DNA from: Candidatus Kaiserbacteria bacterium
Lineage (GTDB): Bacteria > Patescibacteria > Paceibacteria > UBA9973 > UBA2100
Direction of reading: 5' to 3'
Length of the DNA: 5,102 nucleotides
Assembly: GCA_002401495.1 (NCBI GenBank)
Contig: NVTG01000120.1
Span: 1-5,102 of the forward strand
Shown here one piece after another: positions 1 to 4,967 of the stretch (the first letter of the stretch is position 1; each line of letters starts with the position of its first letter). Below the pieces are notes generated by a model. It had not been told where the DNA came from and searched no databases. It was given only the letters and a program-made list of their open reading frames with translations. A program made the translations under genes and the position numbers.

Positions 1-397
1 CTCCATTTTCATCCAAAAGAGCCTTCCATAAATCATAGCTATCTTGGAGCATTAACCAACTTTCAGCTGATCCACCCAGCACCCCGGAAAGCCTAACTGC
101 CATTTCAGGCGAAATATCAGAGCCCCACGGTGGTTGCTTAGACAAATCCTCGACATCCCAAACCACTTTGCTCGGATCCAGGTGACTCAGCTCATTTCTC
201 AATTCGTGCAGCTCCAAAACCGCCTTTTCGGCTAAACCCGCCTCAAGCTCGCCTTGATACAGGTAATCCATGAGAGCAGGAAAGCGGCTCCCCCATCTTT
301 CTTCCAGGTTGTGGCTCACAGTACTAAAAAAGGCATGAAAGAAATCCGACGTCCCGATTTCATCAGTAATGCTGCCGACTTTTACACCTACTGCCAT
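1..397 (-). CDS. Imm70-like immunity protein fused to a HigA-type C-terminus (partial, runs off the left edge)
   Basis: The frame opens with ATG at 397 and stays open for 132 codons to the window edge; the stop is not seen. An AGGA ribosome-binding sequence at 404-407 lies 6 bases upstream. Residues 1 to about 94 resemble immunity protein 70 (Imm70) of polymorphic-toxin systems: an N-terminus MAVGVKVGSITDEIG, then DFFHAFFSTVS (about 18-28), a helical middle, and the strongly Imm70-like VVWDVEDLSKQPPWG (78-92). From ISPEMAVRLSGVLGG (95-109) to SAESWLMLQDSYDLWKA (110-126) the protein instead matches the C-terminal half of HigA-type antitoxins, whose N-terminal DNA-binding helix-turn-helix is absent. 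The switch falls at residues 95-98, near positions 104-115. If expressed, the product would be an Imm70 core with a foreign tail. Both similarities are from memory of the families. It is the last cassette visible; its own attC must lie left of the window. Confidence 0.75.
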   Translation of the reverse strand, partial: MAVGVKVGSITDEIGTSDFFHAFFSTVSHNLEERWGSRFPALMDYLYQGELEAGLAEKAVLELHELRNELSHLDPSKVVWDVEDLSKQPPWGSDISPEMAVRLSGVLGGSAESWLMLQDSYDLWKALLDENG

Positions 398-403
398 CCT
401 CGA

Positions 404-407
404 TCCT
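404..407 (-). promoter_or_regulatory. Ribosome-binding site of the Imm70-like gene
   Basis: AGGA on the minus strand sits 6 bases before the ATG at 397, just inside the cassette boundary. It supports this ATG, which also matches the usual start of the Imm70 family (MAVG...). Confidence 0.55.
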
Positions 408-413
408 ATGTAG

Positions 414-485
414 TGCTAATGCCAGTGGTAATGGGCGCCAACGGAGCTCAGCGTAGTTGGCATCCGGTTGACCACATTGTTAGAT
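414..485 (-). other. attC site of the HEPN-like cassette (altered R' box)
   Basis: On the minus strand the site opens with the R'' box ATCTAAC (479-485). Its L'' arm GTGGTCAA can pair with the L' arm TTACCAC if one C stays unpaired, the usual extrahelical base. Outer stem bases ACCGGATGCCAAC and GTTGGCGCC suggest a second paired region. The R' box should read GTTRRRY, but the only candidate at the right distance is ATTAGCA (414-420), with A in place of the invariant G at the crossover point. The stop codon of the preceding gene (487-489) is two bases from the R'' box. Confidence 0.75.
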
Positions 486-486
486 T

Positions 487-1212
487 TCAATAGTCGTGCT
501 TGCCTGTATCAAGCTCGGCCATTCCGAACATATCCGCAGGACGCTTTGTTTCGAACGTAGGATCAGAAAATGCGGCAGAGAGTGCTTGCTCCGCATAACT
601 CACAAGTTCGACAAGTACAGTATATGCCTCAGAGAGCACGACTTTATGTTTACCAGCATTCATAGTTATCCACCCCGACTCGTTGACGAAGTCTACACGG
701 CCGGCTGGCATTGCCAGCTGATCTGAAACTTTTGCTGGCATCACCCCAGGTCGGATAAAGCAAGTTTTAACTACAAGTGGTGTGTGACTAACTGCAGTTA
801 CCCAGCTAAGCGACCCGAGAACTGAGGACTTTAAAGACACTATCTGATCTATTTTTTGTGCGATATGGGCAGAAACATTCCTCAGTTGCCGAATTCCCTC
901 AAGCTTTTCCTGCACTGTAGCCGGTGCATATTGAGCGGGCATCGATTTTGTGCCAGGTTGCATTTTCCAAAGGCTTCTGAACCTATCCGTCGCGTCGATA
1001 AATGCCCAAGCGTCCAAATACAGGTATGTAAATTCGCTAGGCGTCTCATTCCTGCAGTATGAAAACACATGCTCTGTGAGCCCTGAACACAATCGACGGT
1101 ACGCCAGATCTGCTATTTGCGCTGCGTGCCTCAAACCATCGATATACAGCGCCTGTCTTGCATCTAGGACCTGTGGAATATTTAGAAACGGCGAATCGTT
1201 GGAGAACATCAT
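487..1212 (-). CDS. Helical cassette protein with an RNxxxH (HEPN-like) motif
   Basis: This 241-residue protein occupies its own cassette: its ATG lies 8 bases past the attC end at 1220 and its TGA lies next to the next attC. A second ATG follows directly, so the start may be 1209; no strong ribosome-binding site is visible. Residues 66-116 look helical and end with LEGIRQLRNVSAHI, containing R-N-x-x-x-H (111-116). In HEPN-domain ribonucleases an Rx4-6H motif of this form is the catalytic signature and the domain is all-helical. Residues from about 130 appear more strand-rich (SWVTAVSHTPLVVKTCFI, GRVDFVNESGWITM), with another helix at 194-216, so a second domain is possible. There is no signal peptide or membrane segment, so it is probably cytosolic. 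I do not recognise a named family; one motif is not proof of RNase activity. No partner nucleotidyltransferase or antitoxin gene shares the cassette. Confidence 0.8.
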   Translation of the reverse strand: MMFSNDSPFLNIPQVLDARQALYIDGLRHAAQIADLAYRRLCSGLTEHVFSYCRNETPSEFTYLYLDAWAFIDATDRFRSLWKMQPGTKSMPAQYAPATVQEKLEGIRQLRNVSAHIAQKIDQIVSLKSSVLGSLSWVTAVSHTPLVVKTCFIRPGVMPAKVSDQLAMPAGRVDFVNESGWITMNAGKHKVVLSEAYTVLVELVSYAEQALSAAFSDPTFETKRPADMFGMAELDTGKHDY

Positions 1213-1219
1213 CTTTGAA

Positions 1220-1322
1220 ATCTAACGCCGAAGCTAAGTTGCCGCCGAAGCAGCCGAAGACTGCGGAGGGAACCCGAAGCGCGGCAGCGTTTTGGGCGGT
1301 CAAATGCAGCGACTTGTTATAC
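1220..1322 (-). other. attC site of the 174-residue GIY-YIG cassette
   Basis: The minus strand reads GTATAAC (R'', 1316-1322) through to GTTAGAT (R', 1220-1226), 103 bases in all. The arms GCTGCATTTGACCGCC and GGCGGCAACTTAGC are roughly complementary. The TGA of the preceding gene ends at 1324, one base before the R'' box. One arm (1277-1311) is nearly identical to that of the attC at 2423-2497. Confidence 0.9.
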
Positions 1323-2520: not shown

Positions 2521-3675
2521 TTATCGTTTTGAGAGCGCAGTTATCGCTTCTTTTAGTAACCCGATCAACGAGTCAACCTTAAAATCCTGAGCATGAGTTT
2601 CGACTGGCTCTTCATGCCCAAAAAATTTATCAGTAAGGGAGGCTTTTATTTCTACTCTCTTTTCAGCTGGCAGGCTTTCCAAATAGGCATCAATACTAGC
2701 TAGCTCGAGCTCAGCTTTGCGATTTTTATTTTCTATAACTCTATGTCGCGAAGACTCCCTTGCCGCGTACGCTGCGGGAACTATCAAGGTAAACCCGGCT
2801 CCGAGCCTAAATAGAGCAACCCAAGGGTCAAACCCGCCTTTCAAGGAGAAAAAAAGCGTTGTTATTACAACGCACACCATTCCCAGAAAACAGAGCAGCG
2901 CTACGATTCGAAGCCAGTCTGCTGACCGCTTCTCCCTAAATGCAGCACCTTTAAAATTTCCGGTAAGTCCGACATTGCCAACCAGATTCACGATCTGTTC
3001 GGCTTCGGCTTTCTTTTCCTCCAGTTTATTCAGATATTCGGTTGCGGCCTCATCGAGCTCGTCGAGCTTCGACTGAAATTTAGTAGACCGCTCTGTCTGG
3101 TTAGACTGAAATTGGGACTCTAGCTCTTCAAGCTTAGCCTCCGATGTGCTTTGCAATGAATCGAGCGCGACCTTTTGTTGTTCAGATCTTTTCTCTAACT
3201 TTTCTATATGAGCATTGACCGCTGCTAGCGTTTCATCTACCGACGAAGCCTTATTTTCTAAGCCCGCAATAACATCTTCTGCGAGTTTCTTAAAACCGAC
3301 AGCGTCCGATGCTTTTATACTTGGGGTCGGTTGCTCTAATGAGATAAGCGTCGACGAAGCATTAAGCCCAGCATCGATTTGATTTGCTGCGTTAGCCAAA
3401 TGAGCTGCATTTTCATCGTTGTGAAATTGATTGACCTCATTCAAAGAGGCCTGAATAGATTTTTCTATCTGGCTAAGCTTCGAAGGCGTATTGAGAACCG
3501 GACTTGCGGCAGATAATCGGGATTCGATGAAATTCGTCGCCTGCGTCAACCGATCGAGGTTATCTCTAGCGCTACCTTCGAGCTTCTTCTTTGTTCTTTT
3601 TCTAAGAGCGGTCTCAAGTTGTCCAAGCAGGTCATGAACTCCATGATCTGTAAACGATGTTTCGTACTCGGCCAT
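2521..3675 (-). CDS. Coiled-coil protein with two membrane segments, function unknown
   Basis: The protein has 384 residues from the ATG at 3675, which is preceded at 7 bases by GGGGAG (3683-3688). The frame is open further upstream to 3771, but that part is attC sequence and an unlikely protein. Residues 1-145 are mostly helical and polar. Residues about 150-228 are rich in E, K, Q and L in heptad-like spacing and should form a long coiled coil. Two hydrophobic stretches follow, about 256-278 (LRIVALLCFLGMVCVVITT) and 284-304, separated by a short loop (KGGFDP), so the long N-terminal arm and the C-terminal tail probably lie on the same side, most likely the cytoplasm. The region from the hairpin into RKAELELASIDAYLESLP (319-336) resembles a tail I associate with unnamed proteins of accessory regions, including defence loci, though this is memory only. 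There is no enzymatic motif. It fills its cassette alone and could be a membrane-anchored sensor or effector. Confidence 0.85.
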   Translation of the reverse strand: MAEYETSFTDHGVHDLLGQLETALRKRTKKKLEGSARDNLDRLTQATNFIESRLSAASPVLNTPSKLSQIEKSIQASLNEVNQFHNDENAAHLANAANQIDAGLNASSTLISLEQPTPSIKASDAVGFKKLAEDVIAGLENKASSVDETLAAVNAHIEKLEKRSEQQKVALDSLQSTSEAKLEELESQFQSNQTERSTKFQSKLDELDEAATEYLNKLEEKKAEAEQIVNLVGNVGLTGNFKGAAFREKRSADWLRIVALLCFLGMVCVVITTLFFSLKGGFDPWVALFRLGAGFTLIVPAAYAARESSRHRVIENKNRKAELELASIDAYLESLPAEKRVEIKASLTDKFFGHEEPVETHAQDFKVDSLIGLLKEAITALSKR

Positions 3676-3692: not shown

Positions 3693-3748
3693 ATCTAACG
3701 TCAAAGCTAACCGGCGCCGAAGGCGTCCGGTTGAGCACCTTGTTGGGC
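3693..3748 (-). other. attC site of the orphan-GNAT cassette, partly coding
   Basis: At 56 bases this is the shortest attC here. R'' is GCCCAAC (3742-3748) and R' is GTTAGAT (3693-3699), both exact consensus matches. GCTCAACCGGACGCC pairs with GGCGCCGGTTAGC with an unpaired C and A and only a short TTC loop, giving a nearly perfect hairpin. The upstream acetyltransferase gene reads into the site and stops at 3707-3709. Confidence 0.93.
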
Positions 3749-4249
3749 TGCCTTCCTGTACCTGAGTTCAACTAGCTCCTTGCCATCTATCTCGATGACC
3801 TTTGAGGCGCCGTCATGGCTGAATCCAGTCTGCTCGTAGAAGGCACGCGTTCGCGAGTTCTCTTGCAGCACCCAAAGGGTGACAGAGGTGAATCCATCAT
3901 AGTGAAGCAGTGACACTGCATCGTCCATCAACTCCCTCCCAATCCCCTCTCCCCAATGCGAATGGTCTAGGTAGATCGCGTACAACTCACCAATGCCCCG
4001 GCCATCGCTGTCCCTGCTTGGACCGAATGAGCTCCAGCCGACAACCAGCCCGTCGGAACCAACTGCAACACGAGTGCCATTGGCAGATTCAGATAGTGTT
4101 TTGGCCCATCTTTTCTCACGATCTGCCTTTGAAAGCCGTGACAGGTGGCTTTCGGGAACAATGCCAGTATATGCGGCACGCCAGGTGTCTACATGGATGC
4201 GAGCAATATCTGCCGCGTCGGCTTTATTTGCTGTGCGTATGTTATGCAT
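3707..4249 (-). CDS. GNAT-family N-acetyltransferase
   Basis: The protein has 180 residues from the ATG at 4249. The N-terminal MHNIRTANKADAADIARIHV and DTWRAAYTGIVPESHL (21-36) are typical of a common stand-alone GNAT group. Motif A is YAIYLDHSHWGEGIGRELM (90-108), with the G-x-G turn that binds the acetyl-CoA pyrophosphate; the usual first Q/R position holds W99. Motif B is LWVLQENSRTRAFYEQTGF (125-143). The substrate is unknown. The frame could begin at 4303, but those 18 residues overlap the upstream gene and do not match the family, so 4249 is preferred. This ATG overlaps the end of the 83-residue gene by 8 bases, suggesting translational coupling within one cassette. Residues 168-180 (AQQGAQPDAFGAG) are encoded by the attC itself. 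Confidence 0.9.
   Translation of the reverse strand: MHNIRTANKADAADIARIHVDTWRAAYTGIVPESHLSRLSKADREKRWAKTLSESANGTRVAVGSDGLVVGWSSFGPSRDSDGRGIGELYAIYLDHSHWGEGIGRELMDDAVSLLHYDGFTSVTLWVLQENSRTRAFYEQTGFSHDGASKVIEIDGKELVELRYRKAAQQGAQPDAFGAG
4242..4249 (-). other. Eight-base start-stop overlap (ATGCATAA)
   Basis: The ATG of the acetyltransferase (4247-4249) lies inside the last codons of the orphan gene, whose TAA is at 4242-4244, in a different frame. Such overlaps usually mean that ribosomes ending on the first gene restart on the second, which fits the lack of a strong ribosome-binding site of its own. Confidence 0.7.
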
Positions 4250-4493
4250 CAGTATCGTTCTCAGGATATGCCCAAGCCATATCGTCTTTCTCGAACTTAG
4301 CATGAGAGGCTTCCGGATCCATTAATTCTGCCCCAATAACGGAGAATTTCCCGAAAATACCCTGCCCGACCATTAGTCTTTCTATATCTTCAGAAAAAAT
4401 TTCTACAGTTTTATATTCTTCCGAGAGCAACTCACCGTGCCCACCAGTTCGACAACGTTTCAGAATGACTCTCACAACGTTTTTTTCACTCAT
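4242..4493 (-). CDS. Small orphan protein, first gene of a two-gene cassette
   Basis: This 83-residue protein begins with ATG at 4493, with AGAGG about 7 bases upstream, right after the cassette junction at 4533, and ends with TAA at 4242-4244. I do not recognise a family. The first third is basic (VVRVILKRCRTGG, 7-19) and the rest is acidic, with EEYKTVEIFSEDIERLMVG (25-43) reading as strand-helix and a polar tail ending PENDTDA. No signal peptide, membrane segment or metal motif is visible. It overlaps the start of the acetyltransferase gene by 8 bases and no attC lies between them, so the two move and are probably expressed together. It may assist or modulate the acetyltransferase, or be an unrelated passenger. 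The well-placed ribosome-binding site and tight packing support it being real. Confidence 0.75.
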   Translation of the reverse strand: MSEKNVVRVILKRCRTGGHGELLSEEYKTVEIFSEDIERLMVGQGIFGKFSVIGAELMDPEASHAKFEKDDMAWAYPENDTDA

Positions 4494-4634: not shown

Positions 4635-4967
4635 TCAGCCATTGCACGGCGGAGTGAGTGACGATACCAAATCGGCCTCAATCTCCAACCTGCGCTTTTT
4701 GCTTGATTCCGCTAGGACGCACTAGCAGTTGGCTCTATTTTTCAAGAAACAAGCCTCATCGTGATGACCATCAAACCTAGTGGATAGGTCCTCTGTCTGG
4801 CCCACATAGATTGCACTGTGATTACCCCTTCCATCGGCCTTTTCGGTTCGCTTTGAAATATAGTAGACCCCAGCAATTGCTTTAAAATCAGTATTATATG
4901 GGTACACATTGAACGTGTATTCCGTGCCCGAGGCTCCGGTGAGTTTCAGTGTTCCAATTTTAGACAT
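4635..4967 (-). pseudogene. Small GIY-YIG-like gene interrupted by an in-frame TAG
   Basis: Translation from the ATG at 4967 gives 81 residues and stops at TAG (4722-4724). The same frame continues for 28 sense codons to TGA at 4635-4637, exactly where the attC begins, so the original product was about 110 residues. The first part has GVYYISKR (33-40, GIY strand) and AIYVGQTEDLSTRF (52-65, YIG strand with candidate catalytic R64), then HH (68-69). The part after the stop reads RRLEIEADLVSSLTPPCNG, which looks like the family's C-terminal helix with the metal-binding glutamate (probably E97) and a final PPCN. The short product would lack those residues and probably be inactive unless the TAG is read through. 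It has the strongest ribosome-binding site of the window. Alternative: translation as a functional 81-residue protein. The family assignment is from motifs; substrate unknown. Confidence 0.8.

Follow-up and report, generated by a model that had tools for sequence, protein, structure and literature searches.

The open reading frame at the left edge of the 5,102-nt stretch analysed here (hereafter, the window) joins an Imm70 immunity protein in frame to the C-terminal half of a HigA antitoxin, and we consider it probable, at roughly 0.77, that this fusion is a terminal assembly or library chimera and not a new bacterial protein. The window ends inside the fusion gene: the minus-strand frame 397..2 begins with an ATG at 397 and stays open through to the window edge, giving 132 amino acids without a stop codon. 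We presume that the window edge is the end of the contig and that the sequence was obtained from a metagenome. Read from the neighbouring spacer towards position 1, the region consists of the following parts.

398..486, no strand: spacer between the fusion gene and the next ORF, with a repeat copy at 457-482 (direct repeat family D2).
122..397, minus strand: Imm70-only part, codons 1 (ATG at 397) to 92 (Pfam PF15601 and identity to the relative P0001).
102..121, minus strand: 20-nt stretch holding the join, equal to the HigA gene of locus L004 and coding for SDISPE, which P0001 also has.
19..101, minus strand: HigA-derived stretch, from the C-terminal half of HigA without the helix-turn-helix (DNA identity to L004 and TIGR02607).
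1..18, minus strand: second break, 18 nt coding for LLDENG, found in neither HigA nor Imm70 relatives (protein and locus comparison, pattern searches).

A first-pass annotation of this DNA had read the frame as an Imm70-to-HigA chimera, and the profile searches bear out this description. The Imm70 model PF15601 matches residues 6-99 of the fusion at profile positions 2-96 of 131 (E 3.3e-32), with 111.4 bits against a curated cut-off of 26.7, whereas the HigA model TIGR02607 matches residues 94-126 at profile positions 46-78 of 81 only (E 1.3e-10), and its 40.9 bits stay below the curated cut-off of 47.7 for a whole HigA protein. When the two parts were searched separately, as had been proposed, each matched its own family: residues 1-92 retrieved Imm70 (E 8e-30) but none of the HigA models, and with residues 93-132 it was HigA (E 1.2e-11) that matched and not Imm70. 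An Imm70 profile spanning residues 95-132, which the same annotation had named as the outcome that would speak against a chimera, was not obtained; the profile ends at residue 99. The absence of the HigA helix-turn-helix was likewise called correctly, that half of the frame being Imm70; no helix-turn-helix model appeared when residues 1-92 were searched against Pfam and NCBIfam. The other rows were weak (TetR_C_2 at E 0.0051 and PRK09975.1 at E 0.13 for the tail; BTB at E 0.27 for residues 1-92).

The Imm70-only part at 122..397 corresponds to the first two-thirds of a typical Imm70 immunity protein. P0001, a protein of 137 aa and the best-scoring of 739 protein matches, aligns with 75% of the fusion frame at 98% identity and ends as a normal Imm70 (SDISPEIESLANYFVTSTGRDLI and onward). 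Among the best 120 of the 739 Imm70 relatives, the native YF motif after the join (YF after residue 85) occurs in all 120 and a stricter native-ending pattern in 106, while AVRLS after the join, or SAESW or YDLW anywhere, occurs in none; in P0010, the protein ends soon after the native YF motif. Among the matches listed, nine, with identities of 47-55%, span over 90% of the query, and all nine carry native Imm70 endings. A pattern flag marked P0080 and P0116 as HigA-tailed Imm70 proteins, and both were dropped because their AVRL sits in the N-terminal half. In alignment A3, for which 29 sequences were hand-picked from the best 120 of 739, residues I99, L102, Y105, F106, S109, G111 and D113 (P0001 numbering) are invariant. 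This conserved C-terminal part, which belongs to the PF15601 family, is absent from the fusion frame. A table in PMC3482391 pairs Imm70 with Tox-REase-10 toxins. Two further observations concern the family itself. Two Imm70 genes (L002 3001-3303 and L003 863-1162) lie near opposite ends of one 11.4-kb Marinobacter confluentis contig, and another (L024, G370:C1:4553481-4553777) has an in-frame TAA with the native C-terminal sequence still behind it, so that this gene looks broken.

Window positions 19-121 are identical at 101 of 103 nt to the HigA gene of L004, a locus in a gammaproteobacterial MAG, and the first 20 nt are identical throughout. In L004, the HigA gene (101 aa) stands directly behind a 94-aa ORF, which is HigB-like in our reading. 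The HigBA arrangement, with HigB directly before HigA, is not present in the window: the neighbour at 487-1212 encodes 241 aa, lies beyond the spacer and has no Pfam match at E 1e-3.

Across 102-121, the Imm70 protein P0001 and the HigA proteins both read SDISPE, after which P0001 continues with I and HigA with M; the join therefore lies within 102-121, and the parental overlap is at most 20 nt, an upper bound, with the P0001 codons deduced from the protein. The Imm70 parent probably shares this overlap at the DNA level. The first-pass annotation had placed a short ISP(E)-type stretch common to both families at the switch point, which is confirmed as SDISPE; its switch at about residue 94 stands at the DNA level as 102-121, but its single break does not, as a second break follows at 18/19. 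Because the shared stretch codes in the same frame in both genes, the reading frame is kept across the join without selection.

The HigA-like DNA stops at position 19, and towards position 1 the window reads LLDENG where L004 reads RRLIDVKN. This second break lies 83 nt beyond the first, and both fall inside the terminal 121 nt, at the window edge. LLDE was found in none of 120 close HigA proteins (the best 120 of 631), and an LLDENG-type continuation in none of the 47 HigA-like places in the fetched loci, a set that includes duplicates of one gene (for example, L004, L019 and L055) and in which 44 places align to residue 126 or beyond and 3 stop earlier. Patterns of this ending had no match in IMG/VR, nor in 369 genomes with one mismatch allowed.

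A second copy of the fusion, which the first-pass annotation had suggested looking for in other genomes, was not seen among the best 120 of 739 proteins, 15 genome loci or 369 genomes. Of the 15 loci from the genome scan, three align with the Imm70 part, over residues 1-99 or 1-100, and the other 12 with the HigA part, eleven of them over residues 93-126 and L015 over 93-114; none has both halves in one place. Nor does any of the 369 genomes, which were drawn from the class of G001. Matches to the fusion occur in 109 of these; among the places listed, that in G370 matches residues 1-99 and all others start at residue 70 or later, which is the HigA part. The Imm70 family as such is present in two of the 369 genomes, above the cut-off in one. 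A plasmid search by protein matched 50 records, 5 of which cover at least 80% of the query; these are Bacillus immunity 70 proteins at 44-46% identity, matching residues 1-110 or 1-120. Fifteen of the best 20 plasmid records match residues 1-100, and 3 of the 50 reach 60-80% identity. Viral contigs, queried with P0001 rather than with the fusion, gave one weak locus (residues 24-71, 38%), and window 1-1300 had no near match as DNA in plasmids or phages.

The surroundings of the gene look by eye like a cassette array. The D2 repeat copy at 457-482 recurs at 1925-1950 and 3720-3745, and the repeat families D1-D5 are placed within inter-ORF spacers or at their margins, some overlapping called ORF ends. 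These repeats look attC-like, which would make the Imm70 gene an integron cassette; one attC scan returned no matches and a second gave 2 in the window versus a shuffled mean of 1.3, no clear excess, and both scans failed their own control. Rfam had no match. The ORFs at 1324-1920 and 4722-4967 (minus strand) contain stretches that look GIY-YIG-nuclease-like by motif, and neither has a Pfam match at E 1e-3. The ORF at 2521-3675 (minus strand, 384 aa) appears by eye to be coiled-coil, with two hydrophobic segments, and has no Pfam match at E 1e-3. A Zooshikella harenae Imm70 gene (L001 2820-3400) also lies between spacers that are attC-like by eye, which an attC scan did not confirm. The ORFs at 1948-2412 and 3707-4303 encode GNAT acetyltransferases; TIGR02607 and acetyltransferases are reported in PMC7370490 among the most abundant integron-associated functions.

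We propose that the path of the assembly or library would have followed a genuine Imm70 gene, which was probably an integron cassette, correctly to codon 92; it would then have crossed, through an identical stretch of at most 20 nt coding for SDISPE, to a HigA gene located elsewhere or belonging to a different organism in the sample, and 83 nt later it would have left HigA for other sequence and ended. This terminal chimera is favoured by the join in a short identical stretch, the second break 83 nt later, the location of both breaks at the window edge, the 98% identical relative that is unjoined and the lack of a second copy in the material searched. Chimeric contigs formed through shared k-mers are an error that PMC7299287 describes chiefly for related species or sequencing errors. 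Several points count against a chimera. The shared stretch is rare, so that the coincidence is not a common one: its 17-nt core is present in only 1 of the 369 genomes, the HigA donor itself, and an exact search with the 20-mer returned no IMG/VR contigs. In their final rounds, assemblers often run k longer than about 21. HigA is also common integron cargo according to PMC7370490, and a real event between two cassettes is thus not absurd.

Such an event, in which short-homology recombination joined Imm70 to HigA and a second event added the ending, would leave a broken immunity gene decaying in an integron array, and we rank it second, as an unlikely alternative. It would account for an in-frame join inside a stretch common to both proteins and for the loss of the conserved Imm70 C-terminus, and it would suit both the integron setting of HigA in PMC7370490 and the attC-like spacers of the Z. 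harenae gene; however, a single stretch of about 100 nt at the window edge would have had to undergo two events, the 101/103-nt identity to a present-day HigA gene would place them very recently, and the proteins, loci and genomes searched contain no second example. Should the fusion nevertheless be real and both partners array cassettes, short shared coding stretches might be able to link unrelated families of antitoxins in frame within integrons, irrespective of whether the product of this fusion works; this we regard as improbable.

That the integron has produced a new and functional antitoxin-like or immunity protein by fusing cassettes is more doubtful still, and we give it very little credence. 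The frame does stay open to the window edge, and its HigA segment is well conserved among HigA proteins; yet the HigA part has neither the helix-turn-helix nor the ending of HigA, the Imm70 part is without its C-terminal helix and strand, and no second copy was seen in the same searches. Structure prediction points the same way. In AlphaFold2 models, the mean pLDDT was 95.4 for native P0001, in which strands occupy 2-7 and 10-16, a C-terminal helix 114-128 and a further strand 132-136, whereas the fusion reached a mean of 71.6 and retained no strand in its model. Residues 1-10 fell to a mean pLDDT of 36 from 93 in native P0001, and residues 101-132 to 39-57 from 95-97, in a model whose alignment was without close rows for the HigA tail and whose frame is incomplete, both of which by themselves lower confidence. 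The predicted fold thus appears to deteriorate, which we use as supporting evidence only. No solved relative of native Imm70 was found by sequence (best E 0.23), and a weak structural resemblance to E. coli YfbM emerged: in Foldseek, the P0001 model had YfbM (1ryl) as its best match (E 0.034, TM-score about 0.5) and no match at E 0.001 or better. The suggestion in the first-pass annotation that the array may be making new antitoxin-like proteins is not supported, given the lack of a second example in the material searched, the lost Imm70 C-terminus, the worse predicted fold, the second break and the window edge; decay and misassembly, which it had offered as alternatives, fit better, misassembly probably best of all.

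The reading of residues 95-132 as a divergent but native C-terminus of Imm70 that only looks like HigA, for which the shared ISPE motif is the one point in favour, was rejected and has next to no probability, given the 101/103-nt identity of 19-121 to a HigA gene, the stop of the Imm70 profile at residue 99 and the normal ending of the 98% identical P0001.

On present evidence, the case serves mainly as a warning: where two genes share a coding stretch, the frame is preserved with no need for selection, so that an in-frame fusion at the end of an assembled sequence may have no biological origin. A real fusion would show a cassette array in which short homology had linked two antitoxin-like families.

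Compared with the known systems, the fusion is an ordinary Imm70 (PF15601; for example, P0001 and P0012, the latter named 'immunity 70 family protein' at source, from Vreelandella venusta) over residues 1-98, but the C-terminal part of the family, YFVTSTGRDLI onward, is replaced. It matches HigA of the HigBA modules (TIGR02607; for example, L004 2814-3119 and P0121) over residues 93-126, with 100% protein identity to the L004 HigA, and differs from it in having no helix-turn-helix half, no HigB in front and a non-HigA ending after residue 126. The fusion would also resemble the chimeric metagenome contigs described in PMC7299287, with a short identical stretch linking unrelated sequences, in this instance at the window edge.
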